A DNA stretch of 64,000 bases from contig JACAEM010000031.1 of assembly GCA_013388855.1 (NCBI GenBank), forward strand, positions 1 through 64,000, read 5' to 3'. The translations under genes were made by a program, and so were the position numbers. Source of the DNA: Chloroflexota bacterium (GTDB lineage: Bacteria; Chloroflexota; Anaerolineae; Anaerolineales; Villigracilaceae). This document shows, piece after piece, positions 4,092 to 14,067 of the stretch (positions are counted from its first letter, which is position 1; every line of letters starts with the position of its first letter). The notes below the pieces were generated by a model. It did not search any database. It was not told where the DNA came from and saw nothing but the letters and a program-made list of their open reading frames with translations.

Positions 4092-4778
4092 TTAAGCCGC
4101 CAATGGTCTGTCCATTTTGCGGATGACCATGACCACCTTACCTTTGATCTCCAGTGGATCGGTCTTTTTGATGAAGATCGGTTTCATGGTCGGATTGGCG
4201 GGCTGGAGGCGATAACGGTCTTTTTCCTTGAAGAAGTACTTCAAGGTTGCTTCGTTGTCTCGCGGCAACCAAACCGCCACCATTTCACCATTGCGTGCCT
4301 CGGAGGCGGGACGCATCACGACAATATCGCCATCGTTGATCATGGCGTCGATCATGGAGTCTCCCTTGACTTCCAGGGCAAAGAGATTGTCTCCCTTTTC
4401 TTTGGCAGGGAGGAGGCTGCGGGCGATTTCCACAGCATGAGCTTCATTGTCGGTAACGAAACTGACACCAGGTTGAAGCTCGGGGAGGGGGATACCAGCC
4501 GCAATGGGGCCCAGAATCGGGACGCGAAGGGTGTCAACTGATTGAATCGGACCCGCCACCCGCACACCGCGCGAAATCCTGCGGTCACGTTCGATCTTTC
4601 CCATTTTCTCGAGTTGGTCAAGGTAATAATTCACAACTGAAGTGGAGGTTATACCGGTCTTCTCGCCGATCTCACGAATTGACGGCGGATATTTATTCTC
4701 GCGTTGATATTCCGCAAGGAAGTCCAATATCCTTTGGTGACGTTCGCCTAAACCTTTGCTTTTCCGTACCATCATCAT
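4092..4778 (-). CDS. lexA: LexA repressor
   Basis: A 228-residue SOS repressor and self-cleaving serine protease. An N-terminal winged helix (HQRILDFLAEYQRENKYPPS, then a recognition helix near TSTSVVNYY) is joined to the S24 domain. The cleavage site is Ala94-Gly95 in PILGPIAAGIPLPE. The catalytic dyad is Ser141 (KGDSMIDAMI) and Lys180 (NEATLKYF). The start MMMVRKSKG is chosen because AGGAGG lies 8 bases upstream; an in-frame ATG 10 codons earlier has no such site. The upstream promoter contains a LexA box, indicating autoregulation. Confidence 0.95.
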   Translation of the reverse strand: MMMVRKSKGLGERHQRILDFLAEYQRENKYPPSIREIGEKTGITSTSVVNYYLDQLEKMGKIERDRRISRGVRVAGPIQSVDTLRVPILGPIAAGIPLPELQPGVSFVTDNEAHAVEIARSLLPAKEKGDNLFALEVKGDSMIDAMINDGDIVVMRPASEARNGEMVAVWLPRDNEATLKYFFKEKDRYRLQPANPTMKPIFIKKTDPLEIKGKVVMVIRKMDRPLAA

Positions 4779-4841
4779 AGCAAGCCTCCTGCCAACGAAT
4801 ATTGGCATGATAAGAGCATTCTTCGCTCATTTGTGCTATGA

Positions 4842-4870
4842 ATGATAATCGAACGCCTGTTCTGTGTCAA
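4842..4870 (-). promoter_or_regulatory. lexA promoter with embedded SOS (LexA) box
   Basis: On the minus strand, -35 TTGACA (4870-4865) and -10 TATCAT (4847-4842) are separated by exactly 17 bases. The spacer contains AGAACAGGCGTTCG (4863-4850), which differs only at its first base from the Gram-positive type LexA consensus CGAACRNRYGTTCG. Bound LexA would block polymerase, giving the expected negative feedback. Confidence 0.85.
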
Positions 4871-4896
4871 GACCTGTGTTGGTTACAAAATCAAGC

Positions 4897-5889
4897 CTAG
4901 ATCCATGTCCGGCGGCGCATCCAGAGGTACATCAGGATGGGGGTGATTGTCAGGAGTCCTAGCGTGAGATAGAAAACCGGGCGCTGCATTAATTCCCACA
5001 CCGCGTCATTTGGTCGGGGCAGAAAGAAATTCATCCCGAAAACGGCGGCAATAAAGGACATGGGCATGAAGAGCGTGGTGATCGTTGTCAACGTCTTCAT
5101 GATCTCGTTCATGCGGTTGTTGACCACGGACAGATACATATCCAGGGCGCCGCTGACGAGGTCGCGCAAACTTTCGTTCAGATCGTGCAGGCGGACGAGG
5201 TGGTCGTAAATGTCGCGGAAGAAGATGCGATCCCTTGGATCGATCACGCGGTAATCGTCACGGGCGAGCTTGTTCAGCACCTCGCGCTGGGGAAGCAGGA
5301 TGCGTCTCATTGCCAGGAGGACGCGTTTTAACGCGAACAGTCTCTCCAGAGTCCGAGGCGAGGGTTTGTCGAAGACCTGATCTTCAATCTCATCAATGGC
5401 GGCGTCGATCTTTTCCACGGAGGGCATATATCCTGCAACAAGGTTGTCCGCAATTTTGTAGAGCAAATGGTCGGCTCCATCCTGAAGGGTGCGGGAGTCC
5501 CGGTCACAGACATCCCAGGTTTCTTCGATGGCGGAGACCGGGTAGTCGTGATGGGTGACGATATAGTTCTGACCAAGAAATATATCCAGTTCGTCTACTT
5601 TGGTCTCCCAATACTCGTCGCCATTCGTGATAACCATATAATTGAGGACAATGTATAGATAATCTCCCCAGTCGTCGAGTTTGGGAACGTGGGTTTCCTG
5701 GAGGGCATCATCGATTGCCAATGGATGAAAGCCAAAGCCCTGCAAAATGGGGAGGCAGGAACTGGCAGGCTCATCGGTAAAATCGACCCAGAGTAACCCG
5801 CGCCGGTTTCGGATGAGTCCGGGGAACTCTTTTGGAGATACATTTTTGCGGATGGGCTTACCGGGGAGATAGTATAGTGAACGTATCAT
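4897..5889 (-). CDS. corA: CorA-family magnesium/cobalt channel
   Basis: A 330-residue CorA-type divalent cation channel. It has a large cytoplasmic N-terminal domain, a long helical stretch and two C-terminal membrane helices. The signature GMN motif is present in FGMNFFLP at the end of the first membrane helix, and the protein ends in a short positive tail (WMRRRTWI). CorA pentamers admit Mg2+ and can pass Co2+ or Ni2+. It is transcribed towards lexA as a single gene; AAAAGG lies upstream of the ATG. Confidence 0.92.
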   Translation of the reverse strand: MIRSLYYLPGKPIRKNVSPKEFPGLIRNRRGLLWVDFTDEPASSCLPILQGFGFHPLAIDDALQETHVPKLDDWGDYLYIVLNYMVITNGDEYWETKVDELDIFLGQNYIVTHHDYPVSAIEETWDVCDRDSRTLQDGADHLLYKIADNLVAGYMPSVEKIDAAIDEIEDQVFDKPSPRTLERLFALKRVLLAMRRILLPQREVLNKLARDDYRVIDPRDRIFFRDIYDHLVRLHDLNESLRDLVSGALDMYLSVVNNRMNEIMKTLTTITTLFMPMSFIAAVFGMNFFLPRPNDAVWELMQRPVFYLTLGLLTITPILMYLWMRRRTWI

Positions 5890-5984
5890 CGATGCCTTTT
5901 ATTGGTTGAAAATATGATTTCTTTAATTTTTCCGATTTTTATTCAATTATATTTATATGAAAATAAATTAAATGAAAAATTAAC

Positions 5985-6012
5985 TTGACAAAATAAATAA
6001 AAGGGCTATAAT
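5985..6012 (+). promoter_or_regulatory. Consensus promoter of the DUF2089 operon
   Basis: TTGACA (5985-5990) and TATAAT (6007-6012), both full consensus hexamers, are 16 bases apart within an AT-rich stretch. This leaves a leader of about 110 bases before the ATG at 6132. It is the only promoter seen for the four-gene operon, which suggests strong basal transcription. Confidence 0.8.
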
Positions 6013-6131: not shown

Positions 6132-6515
6132 ATGTATGCCGCACCATCTCATTGCCCTGTCTGTCGTTCGGAGTTGGAGGTCAGCCGCCTGCACTGCCCG
6201 TCGTGTGACACCACAATCGATGGCAGATTCACGGGCGGTCCTTTTGCGCATCTGACCGCGGAACATTTGGATTTTATCGTGACCTTTGTCCGTTGCGAGG
6301 GGAAGATCAACCGGATGGAACAGGAACTCGGTCTTTCCTACCCGACGATTCGGAACCGTTTGCATGAAGTGATCCGCACCCTCGGCTTTGAACCCGGCAA
6401 AGATGAACCCATTGAGATCACTGCTGAGAAACGGAATGCTGTGCTCGAAAGCCTGAACGCCGGGAAGATTTCAGCCGATGAAGCCATGCGTCTATTGCGC
6501 GGTGAGGAGGAGTAA
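6132..6515 (+). CDS. DUF2089-type zinc-ribbon protein
   Basis: A 127-residue protein. Residues about 8-30 form a zinc ribbon with two Cys pairs (CPVC and CPSC). The middle holds a helix-turn-helix-like segment (INRMEQELGLSYPTIRNRL). The C-terminus ends in the helical motif LNAGKISADEAMRLLRG, which recurs in the next three genes. This layout matches the DUF2089 family. DNA binding is plausible but unproven. The ATG at 6132 has AGGAGG 9 bases upstream; an earlier in-frame ATG at 6045 has none. First gene of the operon; the stop lies 3 bases before the next ATG. Confidence 0.85.
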   Translation: MYAAPSHCPVCRSELEVSRLHCPSCDTTIDGRFTGGPFAHLTAEHLDFIVTFVRCEGKINRMEQELGLSYPTIRNRLHEVIRTLGFEPGKDEPIEITAEKRNAVLESLNAGKISADEAMRLLRGEEE

Positions 6516-6518
6516 ACA

Positions 6519-7619
6519 ATGTCCCAAACAATCTCTGCGGGTAAAACACCCAGAATCGTGGTGGATCATGTTGGCGGAGACCTCAGTGTGGTCGGCTGGG
6601 AAGGCGCCGACATTCTGGTCAAGGGTGATGATGACGAAGTCCACCTTGAGCAAGCCAATGATCTGGTGACACTATCCTGTGAAGGCGATCTTTCATTGCG
6701 CGTCCCGAAGGCTTCCTCTTTTGAGTTTAAAATGATCGGCGGCGATGCGTCCATTCGCGGTGTGTTTGGAAATATCGAGTTGAGGGAGATCGCCGGAGAC
6801 CTGTCCATCCGTGATTCCGGCTCGATTGCCATCGATACCGTTCGCGCGGATTTCAGCCTCCGCAATGCCAAAGGGGATTTATACATCAAGAATGCTCACA
6901 GCGATGTCTCCATCCGTGACGTGGAGGGGAGCGTGACAATCGAATCAGTGGCGAACGATCTTGCCCTGCGCGGCGCGCGCGGCAATGTGAACGTCAATGT
7001 AGGGGAGGATGTGGTGGTGTACCTTGAACCGAAGCCGGAGGGTACCTATTATGTCAATGCAGGTGATGATATCCTGCTGGTTTTGTCGCCCAGTGCAAAT
7101 GCCACACTCACGCTCCATGGCGATACCATTAATGTCGACTGGCCTGGTATCAAGAACGATGAAGATGCGACAGAGCGTATCCTCACGTTTGGGAATGGTT
7201 CTGCCAAAATCACCCTGGAGGCGGGCGGCGATGTGCGCGTCTCCAACCGGGCGGATGCCGCCGAATCAGCGGATGAATTTGGAAATTTTGCCGGGTTGAA
7301 TTTTGACTGGTCGGGTTTTGGGGAACGGATCTCGCGCCAGGTGGAACAAGCCACACGCCATGCAGCTCAGCGTGCCGAGGAGGCCGCCCGCCGCGCGGAA
7401 CTTCATGCCGAACGCCATGCCCGCAAGTGGAATGCCAACGTCAAGGTGGGGCGTTGGAATTGGGACTTCAATTCGCAGAATGTGCCTCCGCCGCCTCCGC
7501 CTCCTTCTGAGCCGGTGACGGAGGAGGAACGCATGATGATCTTGAAAATGCTGGCAGAAAAGAAAATCACTGCCGCACAGGCGGATGAATTGCTCGCCGC
7601 GTTGGAAGGAGGCAAATAA
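6519..7619 (+). CDS. Beta-solenoid (DUF4097-like) protein with C-terminal helical motif
   Basis: A 366-residue protein without signal peptide or membrane helix. Residues about 10-225 are repeated short beta strands with turns such as GDLSLR, GDASIR, GDLSIR and SDVSIR, resembling the DUF4097/LiaX-YvlB adhesin-like fold. Next comes an Ala/Arg/Glu-rich helix (about 265-305), a run of eight prolines and a C-terminal segment ERMMILKMLAEKKITAAQAD followed by ELLAALEGGK. That last motif is shared by the operon. In Firmicutes, LiaX/YvlB-type proteins act in envelope-stress sensing; a similar role here is inference. Confidence 0.75.
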   Translation: MSQTISAGKTPRIVVDHVGGDLSVVGWEGADILVKGDDDEVHLEQANDLVTLSCEGDLSLRVPKASSFEFKMIGGDASIRGVFGNIELREIAGDLSIRDSGSIAIDTVRADFSLRNAKGDLYIKNAHSDVSIRDVEGSVTIESVANDLALRGARGNVNVNVGEDVVVYLEPKPEGTYYVNAGDDILLVLSPSANATLTLHGDTINVDWPGIKNDEDATERILTFGNGSAKITLEAGGDVRVSNRADAAESADEFGNFAGLNFDWSGFGERISRQVEQATRHAAQRAEEAARRAELHAERHARKWNANVKVGRWNWDFNSQNVPPPPPPPSEPVTEEERMMILKMLAEKKITAAQADELLAALEGGK

Positions 7620-8257
7620 TGTCCTCTGAAGAGCGCAAGAAAATATTAAAAATGGTCGAGGAAGGTAAGATCTCTGCCGACGAAGCCGGGAAGTTGATGA
7701 ACACCCTTGAAGCGGATGCTGATCCGGCAGAGGTGGAGGTCGAGGTCTTTCAATCGGAGCCCAGTTCCGGCTTTGATGGAGGCGCTCCATCCGCGCAAGA
7801 GTTTGAACGGGTGAAAGCGCGGGCACGTCAATTCGCGATGATCCCGTTGTGGATTGGGGTCGTGATCGCGGTGTTCAGTGCATGGGGCCTTTATTCGATC
7901 CAGCGAAACGCCGGGGCGAATTTTTGGTTTTATTGCTTGATCTTCCCATTGTTGCTCGGTGTTTTATTGATTGCCCTGGGCGCGGGCGGACAAAGCTCCA
8001 AATGGCTGTATGTGAATGTGGATCGGCGTCGGGCTCACGACGGGCCGAAAACTATCACGCTTGGCTTTCCCCTCCCGTTGGGATTGACTGCGTGGTTTCT
8101 GCGAAATTTTGGACATACTATTCAAGGCATGAAAAACACGAATGCGGATGATATCATCCAGGTTTTGGATGCGACCGGCGCGTCGGGGGAGCCGCTCATC
8201 GTCAATGTGCAAAATGATGATGGGGACGGCGAGCGTGTGCAGGTTTACATAGGATAA
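7619..8257 (+). CDS. Two-helix membrane protein with N-terminal shared helical motif
   Basis: A 212-residue protein. The N-terminus SSEERKKILKMVEEGKISAD is the same motif found at the end of the previous product. An acidic linker follows, then two membrane helices at about residues 78-97 and 103-125, and a C-terminal soluble domain with QVLDATGASGEP and VNVQNDDGDGERVQVYIG. The final ERVQVYI segment is echoed by HVEIYV in the next product. Its ATG overlaps the preceding stop (TAATG), so translation is probably coupled. Function unknown; it may anchor a complex of the operon's proteins to the membrane. Confidence 0.75.
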   Translation: MSSEERKKILKMVEEGKISADEAGKLMNTLEADADPAEVEVEVFQSEPSSGFDGGAPSAQEFERVKARARQFAMIPLWIGVVIAVFSAWGLYSIQRNAGANFWFYCLIFPLLLGVLLIALGAGGQSSKWLYVNVDRRRAHDGPKTITLGFPLPLGLTAWFLRNFGHTIQGMKNTNADDIIQVLDATGASGEPLIVNVQNDDGDGERVQVYIG

Positions 8258-8268
8258 GGAGGCGCAAC

Positions 8269-8649
8269 ATGGCCAGTGCTGAAGAAAGAATGAAGATTTT
8301 GAAGATGATCGAGGAGGGGAAGCTCAGCGCGGAGGAGGGAACAAAACTTCTCGCGGCATTGAGCGACAAACGTCCGCCTGTTCCGCCTCGTGCGCCGGGG
8401 ATGCCGGGTGCGCCGCGCTGGTTACGCATCCGTGTGACGGATGTCCGCTCGGGTCGTTCAAAGGCGTCGGTGCAGATCCCGTTGGCGTTGGTGGATGCGG
8501 GAATGAAGATTGGTGCCCATTTTGCGCCTGAAGTGCAGGGTGTGGATATGTCCAACGTAATGGAAGCCGTACGGTCCGGTATGGTGGGTAAGATCATCGA
8601 TGTGACCGATGAAGAGGATGGGGAGCACGTAGAGATTTATGTGGAGTGA
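8269..8649 (+). CDS. Small soluble protein with N-terminal shared helical motif
   Basis: A 126-residue protein. It starts ASAEERMKILKMIEEGKLSA, the operon motif, continues through a Pro-rich linker (PPVPPRAPGMPGAP), and ends with a domain containing WLRIRVTDVRSGRSKASVQI and EEDGEHVEIYV. The C-terminal half resembles the soluble tail of the preceding membrane protein, suggesting duplication. AAGGAGG lies before the ATG. It is the last gene of the operon; a stem-loop follows. Function unknown. Confidence 0.75.
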   Translation: MASAEERMKILKMIEEGKLSAEEGTKLLAALSDKRPPVPPRAPGMPGAPRWLRIRVTDVRSGRSKASVQIPLALVDAGMKIGAHFAPEVQGVDMSNVMEAVRSGMVGKIIDVTDEEDGEHVEIYVE

Positions 8650-8724: not shown

Positions 8725-8812
8725 GGCGGACTGACCATCCTCTCCCGCATGATCTGGCACGACCTGCTCGACAATTAAAATGACTTTACAAGTTTATAGC
8801 CCGTTGTACGGG

Positions 8813-8855
8813 TTGTTTTATCTTTGGGGCTGTGTTATGCTCTCCGATCGGAGAG
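8813..8855 (+). promoter_or_regulatory. Possible MFS-gene promoter with 16-bp palindrome
   Basis: A candidate -35 TTGTTT (8813-8818) and -10 TATGCT (8836-8841) are 17 bases apart. The perfect palindrome CTCTCCGATCGGAGAG (8840-8855) overlaps the end of the -10 and the expected transcription start and ends one base before the ATG at 8857. It looks like a repressor site, but no regulator gene is adjacent. Confidence 0.45.
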
Positions 8856-8856
8856 T

Positions 8857-10380
8857 ATGGTCAGTTCTTATTTTTCATTTCGACGCCCAAACGGTATGTG
8901 GGGGTTGTTTGTCATCTGGCTGGGACAGATGATCTCTGGAATCGCTTCCAGCATTACCTTTTTTGCTCTCCCCAATTGGATTCTCGAATCAACTGATGTG
9001 AGCGGCAGCGCCCTCAGCTACTGGGAATCGGCGTTCTTTGGATCATATCTCCTGATCATCCTTTTTGCTGGTGTTCTCATCGACCGGTATAACCGCAGGA
9101 TGATGATGCTCGTATACGATTTTTTGGGGCTGACCACGGTCGCCATCCTGCTGGTTCTGCAAACAACCGGGAATCTGACGGTCTGGCACTTGTACATCGC
9201 GGCGGTCCTTCAGGGAATTGGCTTTGCTTTTCAGGCACCGTCTTATGCAGCCGCGATCACCACCATGGTGCCTCGGAAACAATTAGTGCGCGCCAACGGA
9301 TTTATTTCTCTGCTGGATAATGCTCCAGGGATTGCAGGTCCTTTCCTGGCGGTATTTATGGTCGGTTTCGTTGGCTTGAGTGGTGTTTTGGCATTCAATC
9401 TGTTTTCGTTCATTTTGTCGATTGGTACGTTACTCTTTGTGGAAATTCCGCCGACTCCTCATACTGCCGAAGGTGAAATGTCCCACAGCCGATTTTGGAG
9501 GGAGGTGATTTTTGGTATCAGATATATTTTCCAGCGGCCCGGTTTGCTGGGCATTCAACTCGTATTCCTTTTCGGGAATTTCTTTTCAGGGATTGCCCTT
9601 TCATTGACCGCTCTCTATACCATGGTCTTTCTGCGAACCGGAGGCGACCCCAATGCTGCGAACCTTCTTCAATCCGTTGGTGCGGCAGCGGCGGTCATCA
9701 TTGGCATCATCCTTGCCGGTTTTGGTCGGATCAAACGTCCCATTCGGGTGATCCTGTTGGGGTGGGTTATATCGAGTTTTTTTGGCATGGGTTTGTTGGG
9801 AATGGGACAGTCGATAGTGATCTGGCTGATTGCGATGGTGCTCGATTCGAGTTTCGAGCCGATCGTAAATGTTTCGATTGACACCTTTTTACAGACAAAA
9901 GTTCCGCCCGACTTGCAGGGGCGTGTCTTCTCAGCCAGTGATTTCCTTGCGCAGATACTGATCCCTATTACGCCTCTGTTGGCAGGTGTGTTGGGAGAGA
10001 GGGTCTTCGAACCAGCCATGATGGATGGGGGGGCGCTCGCCGATTCCTTTGGTTGGCTGGTTGGCACCGGACCTGGTGCGGGGTTTGGGTTAATGATCCT
10101 GATGTGCGGCATCGGAGGGACACTGGTTGGTCTGTTTGGTTATTTGACGCCTGCCATTCGCAATGTGGATGCGATATTGCCGGACTACGAACTCTCCCCG
10201 CACCCAGTGGATGGGGCAGCTCGCGTCCTGCTGGGGGGGAAAGCTTTGCCTCCCTCCTCCACAGATGAGACTTCGGCGGGTGCCGGAATCGGAAAACCTG
10301 TGCCTTCTGGGAACCCCGGAAAGAAAAAAAGATCGGGGAAGACACGCAAAAAAAAGAGGCAGGGAACTGCCTCCTCCTAA
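8857..10380 (+). CDS. MFS transporter
   Basis: A 507-residue major facilitator superfamily permease with about 12 hydrophobic helices. It begins MVSSYFSFRRPNGMWGLFVI and has the conserved cytoplasmic loop motif DRYNRRMMM between helices 2 and 3. The C-terminal tail is long, basic and Lys-rich (GKKKRSGKTRKKKRQG), unusual for the family. This resembles MFS proteins annotated as drug or macrolide efflux pumps; the substrate is unknown. The start at 8857 is preferred to a TTG at 8824, which lies upstream of the likely transcription start. Confidence 0.85.
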   Translation: MVSSYFSFRRPNGMWGLFVIWLGQMISGIASSITFFALPNWILESTDVSGSALSYWESAFFGSYLLIILFAGVLIDRYNRRMMMLVYDFLGLTTVAILLVLQTTGNLTVWHLYIAAVLQGIGFAFQAPSYAAAITTMVPRKQLVRANGFISLLDNAPGIAGPFLAVFMVGFVGLSGVLAFNLFSFILSIGTLLFVEIPPTPHTAEGEMSHSRFWREVIFGIRYIFQRPGLLGIQLVFLFGNFFSGIALSLTALYTMVFLRTGGDPNAANLLQSVGAAAAVIIGIILAGFGRIKRPIRVILLGWVISSFFGMGLLGMGQSIVIWLIAMVLDSSFEPIVNVSIDTFLQTKVPPDLQGRVFSASDFLAQILIPITPLLAGVLGERVFEPAMMDGGALADSFGWLVGTGPGAGFGLMILMCGIGGTLVGLFGYLTPAIRNVDAILPDYELSPHPVDGAARVLLGGKALPPSSTDETSAGAGIGKPVPSGNPGKKKRSGKTRKKKRQGTASS

Positions 10381-12499: not shown

Positions 12500-13309
12500 T
12501 TATGCCGGTTTGTATGCGGTGATCTTTGCGCTGTACACCGCTTGATACACGCTCTCACGCGGGTATTGGTTTATATCCAGTTTCATTTCTTCCAGCGCGG
12601 AGTCAACAGTTTCCTTGTCGAAAAAGACGGGCTTGATGGTGATATCGGTAAAGCCGGCGGCTTCCATCATGGCGGTGTATTCCTTTGCTTCGACTGCACC
12701 CGCCACGCACCCCGCCCACGCGCTCAGGCTTTGCTTGACTTCCTCAGGCAAGGGCCCGCCCGTGACGATATCGCTGACAGCGAATTTACCGCCGGGTTTC
12801 AAAACACGGAAGGCTTCGCCGAAGACTTTGGGCTTGTCGGGCGAGAGGTTGATGACGCAGTTCGATATGACGACATCCACACTGGATGAGTCCACGGGCA
12901 GGGCTTCGAGATAACCCTGACGGAATTCCACGTTATCGAGATTCATCCGTTTCGCGCTGGACCTGGCGCGTTCGATCATTTCGGGAGTCATGTCCACGCC
13001 GATGACGCGTCCCGCCGCGCCGACTTTTTTCGCGGCGAAAAAGCAATCGAGTCCCGCGCCCGAGCCGAGATCGAGGACGGTCTGCCCGGGCTGGAGCGAT
13101 GCAAGCGTGATCGGGTCACCGCAGCCGTAACTGACGGCTGATTCGCCCTCAGGGAGGGTGGCAATCAACTCGGCGGGGTAGAGGTTGCTGTCGGATGTGG
13201 AACAACAATCGGAGCCGCCTCCGCAGCAGGATGCGTTGTTTTTTATCCGCTCGGCGTAGTGTTCGCGCACGGCGTCGTGGATGGGAGTGAGGGATGAGGT
13301 GGTGGTCAT
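12500..13309 (-). CDS. arsM: Arsenite S-adenosylmethionine methyltransferase
   Basis: A 269-residue class I methyltransferase. The SAM motif is VLDLGSGAGLDCFFAAKKVG. ArsM-specific cysteines are present: CCGGGSDCC near the N-terminus, SYGCGDP, the Cys after the SAM motif, VISNCVINLSPDKP and the later WAGCVAGA. The enzyme methylates As(III) to methylated arsenicals. The ribosome-binding site AAGGAG is 6-10 bases before the ATG. An ArsR-type palindrome lies 14 bases upstream and arsR is the preceding gene, so arsenite induction is likely. Confidence 0.95.
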   Translation of the reverse strand: MTTTSSLTPIHDAVREHYAERIKNNASCCGGGSDCCSTSDSNLYPAELIATLPEGESAVSYGCGDPITLASLQPGQTVLDLGSGAGLDCFFAAKKVGAAGRVIGVDMTPEMIERARSSAKRMNLDNVEFRQGYLEALPVDSSSVDVVISNCVINLSPDKPKVFGEAFRVLKPGGKFAVSDIVTGGPLPEEVKQSLSAWAGCVAGAVEAKEYTAMMEAAGFTDITIKPVFFDKETVDSALEEMKLDINQYPRESVYQAVYSAKITAYKPA

Positions 13310-14039: not shown

Positions 14040-14067
14040 ATTATATCGAAGATTGTCTATTTGTCAA
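14040..14067 (-). promoter_or_regulatory. ars operon promoter with embedded operator
   Basis: On the minus strand, -35 TTGACA (14067-14062) and -10 TATAAT (14045-14040), both consensus, are 16 bases apart. The spacer is filled by the palindrome ATCGA-AGATTG-TCTAT (plus-strand reading, 14045-14060), nearly identical to the site before arsM. Repressor bound there would exclude polymerase. Confidence 0.85.

Follow-up and report, generated by a model that had tools for sequence, protein, structure and literature searches.

A DUF2089–Toastrack operon of Anaerolineae with a candidate operator array and frequent major facilitator superfamily neighbours

DUF2089 and SHOCT-like domains occur across diverse bacterial lineages, and a four-gene context that joins a DUF2089 gene to a Toastrack gene has been published (PMC11237479, mSystems 2024; here and below, its main text). 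The context is predicted there to serve membrane-stress signalling, with the Toastrack protein proposed as a scaffold and the SHOCT-like domains proposed to localise at the membrane; that text gives no experimentally shown role of DUF2089 or SHOCT-like domains in such an operon. LiaX/LiaXYZ of enterococci and YvlB of Bacillus subtilis likewise combine a Toastrack with a helical SHOCT-like part, and excerpts of PMC10269926 and PMC11237479 give LiaX/YvlB a role in the response to antimicrobial peptides. In leaderless-bacteriocin clusters, the neighbours of a DUF2089-family protein include an efflux system and small membrane proteins (excerpts of PMC7332713 and PMC10707071). Here, we analyse an operon of the DUF2089–Toastrack kind, with genes P1 to P4, in positions 1 to 64,000 of contig JACAEM010000031.1 (GCA_013388855.1, a Chloroflexota bacterium of the Villigracilaceae); this whole 64,000-nucleotide stretch is called the window. 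We computed its domains, gene order, association with pumps of the major facilitator superfamily (MFS), promoter and candidate operator array, including the concentration of that array at the operon. We propose, with confidence about evenly divided for and against, that the operon is a self-contained membrane-stress switch in which P1 binds the array and controls the operon and pumps, and P2 to P4 couple it to the state of the membrane.

The four genes and their products are:
6132..6515, + strand: P1, DUF2089 protein with zinc ribbon, helix-turn-helix (HTH) and C-terminal SHOCT-like hairpin (Pfam PF22747, PF09862, PF22746)
6519..7619, + strand: P2, Toastrack (DUF4097) with C-terminal SHOCT-like hairpin (Pfam)
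7619..8257, + strand: P3, SHOCT-like hairpin, two membrane helices and C-terminal domain (CTD) (Pfam, hidden Markov models (HMMs), predicted structure)
8269..8649, + strand: P4, soluble, SHOCT-like hairpin and CTD (Pfam, HMMs, predicted structure)

All four genes lie on the + strand within 2.6 kb, and the start of P3 overlaps the stop of P2 by one base. An initial annotation of this DNA had described a tightly packed four-gene operon that begins with a zinc-ribbon DUF2089 protein and includes a two-helix membrane protein, and the coordinates and domains bear this out. P1 belongs to DUF2089 by both its zinc ribbon (PF22747, E 1.7e-14, 54.1 bits against a Pfam cut-off of 27.6) and its HTH (PF09862, E 1.7e-20, 72.9 bits against 33.4). 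It is the sole DUF2089-HTH match in a search of the whole genome, and Pfam assigns a DNA-binding domain to none of the other three proteins. The DUF4097 match of P2 reaches 28.4 bits (cut-off 22.9). In P3, two long predicted helices (residues 58-98 and 102-126) coincide with its two hydrophobic stretches; in the AlphaFold2 model these helices lie between the SHOCT-like hairpin and the CTD.

The locus resembles the context of PMC11237479 in that a zinc ribbon/HTH/SHOCT-like DUF2089 gene stands beside a Toastrack gene and a membrane protein, P3, belongs to the gene set. It differs in the membrane partner: PspC, LiaI-LiaF-TM and B-box are the partners named in that text, whereas here it is a two-helix SHOCT-like/CTD protein, with no Pfam match to any of these three at E <= 1. 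The kind of operon is thus known, and the CTD, the MFS link and the operator are additions to what PMC11237479 describes in its main text. The words 'MFS', 'major facilitator', 'efflux' and 'operator' are absent from that text (its supplements fall outside this statement), and the P3/P4 CTD, the MFS genes and the operator are not described there; among the matches listed in a literature search, no title or abstract opening gives an operator or an MFS link for a DUF2089–Toastrack operon. The leaderless-bacteriocin clusters, unlike the P1 operon, have efflux systems of the ABC/HlyD type, and Toastrack is not among the table rows of PMC7332713 and PMC10707071. The initial annotation had drawn an analogy to LiaX/YvlB, which holds only loosely. 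In LiaX the helical part is N-terminal and the beta part C-terminal, whereas P2 has its Toastrack N-terminal and its SHOCT-like hairpin C-terminal, and P2 is paired with a DUF2089 regulator where LiaX goes with LiaFSR. The NCBIfam LiaX model NF038025 (cut-off 350 bits) does not match P2 at E <= 1 and matches P3 over residues 4-42 only (10.9 bits), and the LiaG match of P2 is weak (15.6 bits against a cut-off of 285).

The hairpins were located by a genome search with PF22746:
6426..6506, + strand: SHOCT-like hairpin of P1
7524..7616, + strand: SHOCT-like hairpin of P2
7628..7714, + strand: SHOCT-like hairpin of P3
8281..8373, + strand: SHOCT-like hairpin of P4

One motif had been noted earlier in all four proteins, at the C-terminus of the first two and the N-terminus of the last two, and the PF22746 matches agree in presence and position (Pfam E-values 1.7e-5, 1.6e-8, 1.3e-10 and 2e-11 for P1 to P4; residues 336-366 in P2). 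The cut-off of 27 bits is exceeded by P2, P3 and P4; P1 scores 24.7 bits alone, below the cut-off, and 27.7 with its frame neighbours. At E <= 0.001 the whole genome, 4.03 Mb in size, has no PF22746 match beyond these four. Across 61 genomes, the window's own included, PF22746 and DUF2089 are both above their cut-offs in 55; the DUF2089 match is absent in five of the six genomes without PF22746 and weak, below its cut-off, in the sixth. Like the SHOCT domain of PMC3581485, described in excerpts of that paper as short, two-helix and placed at the ends of many unrelated proteins, these hairpins are terminal; PF22746 is a SHOCT-like model separate from the classical SHOCT of the oligomerisation test in that paper. 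Some P3-type proteins carry two tandem SHOCT-like hairpins (L078 5095-5805, L091 4253-5014), a fusion that may hint at hairpin–hairpin contact.

Gene order is strongly kept. A scan with one genome per species gave 473 P4 relatives, and the best 80 loci were retained; by their titles these belong to Anaerolineae or other Chloroflexota, and almost all are from metagenome-assembled genomes. P1 is present in 70 loci, and in the other 10 P4 lies within 3.1 kb of a contig end. All 70 P1-bearing loci have the order P1-P2-P3-P4 on one strand, counted from same-strand profile matches (in one locus P3 was recognised by its membrane/CTD profile only), so the conservation that the initial annotation had proposed to check is found. 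The genes are uninterrupted by any profiled gene in 37 of these loci, and in 33 an MFS gene is interleaved, between P3 and P4 in 32 and between P2 and P3 in one. Median gaps over the 70 loci are 3 bases for P1-P2, -1 for P2-P3 and 10 for P3-P4 where these are adjacent. Beyond this set, 40 wider Chloroflexota loci were drawn from P4-profile matches, which are found in 144 of 301 phylum members when partial matches, such as to the SHOCT-like end, are included. P1 is present in 37 of the 40, and P1 together with a SHOCT-CTD P4 in 35, a few of them with weak CTD matches. Some relatives have an extra Toastrack-SHOCT gene 3' of P4 (L055 3037-3930, L085 5488-6492, L089 2866-3807). On the other side of the operon, corA (Pfam CorA) and the gene that follows it, which we take to be lexA-like, are divergent (4092-5889, - strand), and the pair adjoins the operon in many relatives.

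P3 and P4 share more than the hairpin:
7997..8251, + strand: CTD of P3 (residues 127-211), without a Pfam model (BLASTP, HMMs, model)
8416..8643, + strand: CTD of P4 (residues 50-125) (BLASTP, HMMs, model)

A shared VxIYV ending had been noticed before; the likeness is real but was understated, since VxIYV forms the end of a domain, some 80 residues long, that both proteins have in common. The last ~85 residues align by BLASTP at E 3e-5, iterated HMMs seeded from P3 or from P4 each match both proteins, and AlphaFold2 models have strand-strand-helix-helix-strand-strand in the same order in P4 51-125 and P3 129-211, at moderate model quality (P4/P3: mean pLDDT, the predicted local distance difference test, 75.7/74.2; pTM, the predicted template modelling score, 0.50/0.49). 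PF22746 is found in 24 of 24 P4 relatives, whose other Pfam matches are weak and scattered (the best, at 0.0029, is to a GatB domain, in three of these relatives). A possible reading is that P3 is a P4 into which a membrane hairpin was inserted, which would agree with the rarity of P3 among the wider loci. We claim no fold for the CTD. Foldseek with the P4 and P3 models gave zero matches at E <= 0.001; the best match of P3, the CpxA kinase, was rejected at E 0.059 and a template modelling score (TM) of 0.29, as were the SPAK/OSR1 CCT domains that topped a second fold comparison for P4 (Z 4.7, root-mean-square deviation 3.9-4.0 A, 74-77 residues), where possibly the arrangement is only a common one. 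PDB sequence searches with P1, P2, a P3 profile and a P4 profile gave no convincing match, and their leading candidates were set aside: designed TIM barrels (best E 1.2e-4, zero stretches passing alone) and antitrypsin for the P4 profile, calmodulins for the P3 profile (best 0.0029), a zinc protein and a sigma factor for P1 (E 0.15-0.52) and a single match at 0.94 for P2.

MFS exporter genes are frequent companions of the operon, and the window has one behind P4:
8857..10380, + strand: MFS exporter, downstream (D) group, Mef-like / H+ antiporter type (Pfam, clustering, exporter models)
8796..8816, + strand: terminator-like hairpin between P4 and the MFS gene (pattern match only)

An MFS gene lies no more than 400 bases upstream of P1, between the four genes or no more than 1.5 kb downstream of P4 in 54 of the 70 loci. 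These limits yielded 96 MFS genes; three of no more than 300 residues were dropped, and 93 were clustered with the window's gene, linking pairs whose identity exceeded 40% across an aligned stretch longer than 250 residues. The clusters track position: they take in 18 of 18 upstream genes, 33 of 33 inside genes and 39 of 42 downstream genes plus the window's gene at 8857-10380, the other three downstream genes forming clusters of two and one. Such position-specific clusters are not background, since the whole 4.03 Mb genome of the window has 41 MFS_1 matches, a figure that counts some genes in pieces. A close relative of the M-type pump was not found in that genome, where the best match by E-value has 27% identity over partial length. 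Pump identity holds at the superfamily level only, because the matches to the drug-efflux models Mef, Tet and TIGR00900 are below cut-off among those listed; the window's protein reaches 182.7 bits with TIGR00900 (cut-off 319.6) and is above the cut-off of Pfam MFS_1, and the inside type matches NorA in a PDB search. The pumps may be co-transcribed with the operon, which in the window is uncertain for P4 and its MFS gene because of the terminator-like hairpin between them; that pattern occurs at 6 sites in the window against 3.4 expected from shuffles.

A single consensus promoter had been placed ahead of the operon, and a 12/12 element is indeed there:
5985..6012, + strand: sigma-70 promoter TTGACA-N16-TATAAT, 12/12 (genome scan; element kept in relatives)

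The genome has 20 perfect promoters with spacers of 15-19, against one for a reversed control. For the relatives we took up to 500 and at least 80 bases before the operon's first gene, which gave 158 upstream regions and, after 44 near-duplicates were dropped, 114: 78 of group A (the window, relatives in its genus, family and order, and named loci) and 36 wider ones. The perfect N16 promoter is present in 57 of the 114 and in none of the regions of 50 shuffled sets; 56 of the 57 are among the 78 group A regions, the window included. An earlier count, made before the regions were redefined, had given 12/12 in 25 of 62 listed regions, a lower figure because of short stretches behind an upstream MFS gene. 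The conservation of this promoter, the full CTD, the MFS pumps and the operator array go beyond the initial annotation.

Motif discovery upstream of the -35 box found an A+T-rich palindrome (12.7 bits, against 9.5-10.0 in six shuffled sets), which we modelled as the 13-bp T-Y-R-A-T-A-n-T-A-T-Y-R-A. Palindrome centres are given from the first base of the -35 hexamer, and no strand is assigned:
5943..5955: candidate operator site 1, centre -36, TCAATTATATTTA (11/13 model positions)
5964..5976: candidate operator site 2, centre -15, TAAATTAAATGAA, degenerate in the window (9/13 model positions)
5985..5997: candidate operator site 3, centre +6, over the -35 hexamer, TTGACAAAATAAA (10/13 model positions)

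Of the 114 regions, 49 contain two palindromes in tandem with a spacing of 21 bp; in 60 shuffled sets the count averaged 0.18 and never exceeded 2. At the remaining spacings between 14 and 31 bp, 0 to 10 regions have such a pair, apart from secondary peaks at 30 bp (20/114) and 31 bp (12/114). Aligned on the promoter, 66 pair matches include (-36,-15) 24 times and (-15,+6) 27 times, which makes an array of three sites whose third covers the -35 hexamer. Among 71 regions aligned in this way, the window's among them, site 1 scores at least 10 in 30, site 2 in 39 and site 3 in 50. In the +6 site, the half that lies beyond the hexamer has a mean score of 3.99 out of 6; 42 control offsets average 2.36 and reach at most 3.39. 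Because 25 of the same promoters had served for the motif discovery that preceded the choice of model, the consensus of the model is partly fitted, and the spacing peak and fixed offsets are the more independent evidence. In the window, sites 1 and 2 jointly have p = 0.0039 at their fixed positions under mononucleotide shuffles.

The palindrome clusters are concentrated at the operon: 53 lie in 49 kb of upstream DNA and four in the remaining 1.22 Mb of the same loci, and two of these four (L143, L161) are within 150 bases of P1, in annotated corA. The array is tied to the operon and not to corA, since in the listed loci with an MFS gene before P1 it precedes the MFS gene, and it also occurs where a divergent corA was not found. 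A strict tandem pattern with up to three mismatches was found in 22 of the 61 genomes, at the operon in 16 of these genomes and at 10 other places (assigned by hand from the known operon positions), against six matches for a reversed control. One-base-gap repeats in the wider loci are commonest at 21 bp (5/36, shuffled maximum 2).

We propose that P1, through its zinc ribbon/HTH part, binds the three tandem 13-bp palindromes, which at 21 bp stand two helical turns apart. P1 is the simplest candidate for the binder because it is the genome's only DUF2089 protein and the only member with a DNA-binding domain in Pfam, and because the sites gather at the operon that encodes it. It would most likely be a cooperative repressor, given that the third site covers the -35 box of a consensus-perfect promoter. 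P3 would be anchored in the membrane by its two helices, with the SHOCT-like hairpin and the CTD on one side, presumably the cytoplasm, and would be joined by P2 as Toastrack scaffold and by P4, which offers the CTD of P3 without the membrane helices. The assembly would form through the SHOCT-like hairpins that all four proteins carry, so that P1 could pass from DNA to the membrane complex and back. Damage to the membrane, or drugs that act on it, would then release the operon and the MFS exporters within or beside it in many relatives. The link to the membrane comes from P3, from the scaffold role of Toastrack and from the SHOCT-like membrane localisation proposed in the main text of PMC11237479. 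The pumps suggest a membrane-active or exported drug as the signal, and presumably as their substrate; excerpts on the DUF2089 proteins of bacteriocin clusters and on LiaX point the same way without proof. Only tentatively do we extend this to a DUF2089 repressor that shuttles between a phased three-site operator and a membrane complex via an interchangeable hairpin, a kinase-free alternative to two-component envelope sensing that controls efflux pumps across Anaerolineae.

Several results weigh against the membrane-stress switch. A classical SHOCT domain did not self-oligomerise (excerpts of PMC3581485), P3 turned up in 2 of the 40 wider loci, and 16 of the 70 loci have no MFS gene within the limits. 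The N16 spacer is not special to the operon, as it is the commonest among the genome's perfect promoters (12 of 20). No tandem pair at spacings 20-22 was found in 59 of the 114 regions, and outside group A a pair at 21 occurs in 6 of 36 only. Ranked by mean score the offsets run +6, -15, +29, -36; the first is helped by the fixed TTGACA letters, and +29 probably stands above -36 through the fixed letters of the -10 hexamer. A generic inverted-repeat scan of group A has no peak at 21 bp (18 bp with 10/78 and 24 bp with 9/78 lead), the 21 bp signal there appearing with the specific palindrome model, and the same scan of the wider loci found no clear alternative array. The window's own array is weak, its sites scoring 11, 9 and 10 out of 13, and the strict tandem pattern is not found anywhere in the window's genome; hence, the array is a property of the operon family, weakly present in the window.

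It is possible, if rather doubtful, that the SHOCT-like domains are separate membrane anchors that each take their protein to the inner leaflet alone, without hairpin assembly. Such anchoring has been proposed in PMC11237479 (main text), and the result for the classical domain in the excerpts of PMC3581485 also favours it. However, P3 keeps a strong SHOCT-like hairpin despite its own two membrane helices, which would make anchoring alone redundant in that protein. With regard to the DNA, two of the three sites precede the -35 box, in the region to which activators bind, and P1 might be an activator, or the array might be used by another regulator, such as a Fis- or CRP-like global protein, with the target of P1 elsewhere. 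The candidate array is missing at many P1-bearing loci, as either alternative would allow, but we consider them unlikely: the third site extends over the -35 box, and a promoter that matches the consensus perfectly has little need for activation. The array is also unlike the site of a global regulator, because its 10 strict matches off the operon in 61 genomes are not far above the six of the control, and in the listed loci it stands before the operon's first gene, MFS or P1. A mere record of gene duplication, with P3 as P4 plus a membrane hairpin and no part in assembly, would fit the two end domains that P3 and P4 share and the wide spread of P4 beside the rarity of P3, but is very improbable because it explains neither why P1 and P2, which otherwise differ, carry copies nor why the four genes are kept together in 70 of 70 loci.

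For the membrane-stress switch, a candidate operator concentrated at one operon means that binding by the DUF2089 HTH can be tested directly, and the MFS exporters so often found with the operon point to a phenotype to look for. If P1 is indeed titrated by SHOCT-like contacts, the operon would be a compact, kinase-free route from membrane to promoter.

A plasmid search with P4 gave three records, all Paraclostridium; Paraclostridium bifermentans plasmids have adjoining DUF2089 and P4-like genes (L175 5565-6408, L176 5609-6396) with MreB and sigma-factor genes near. Elsewhere in the window, another perfect TTGACA-N16-TATAAT lies at 14040-14067 on the - strand, and beyond it on the same strand is a large open reading frame (12500-13309) whose product we presume to resemble an arsenite methyltransferase.

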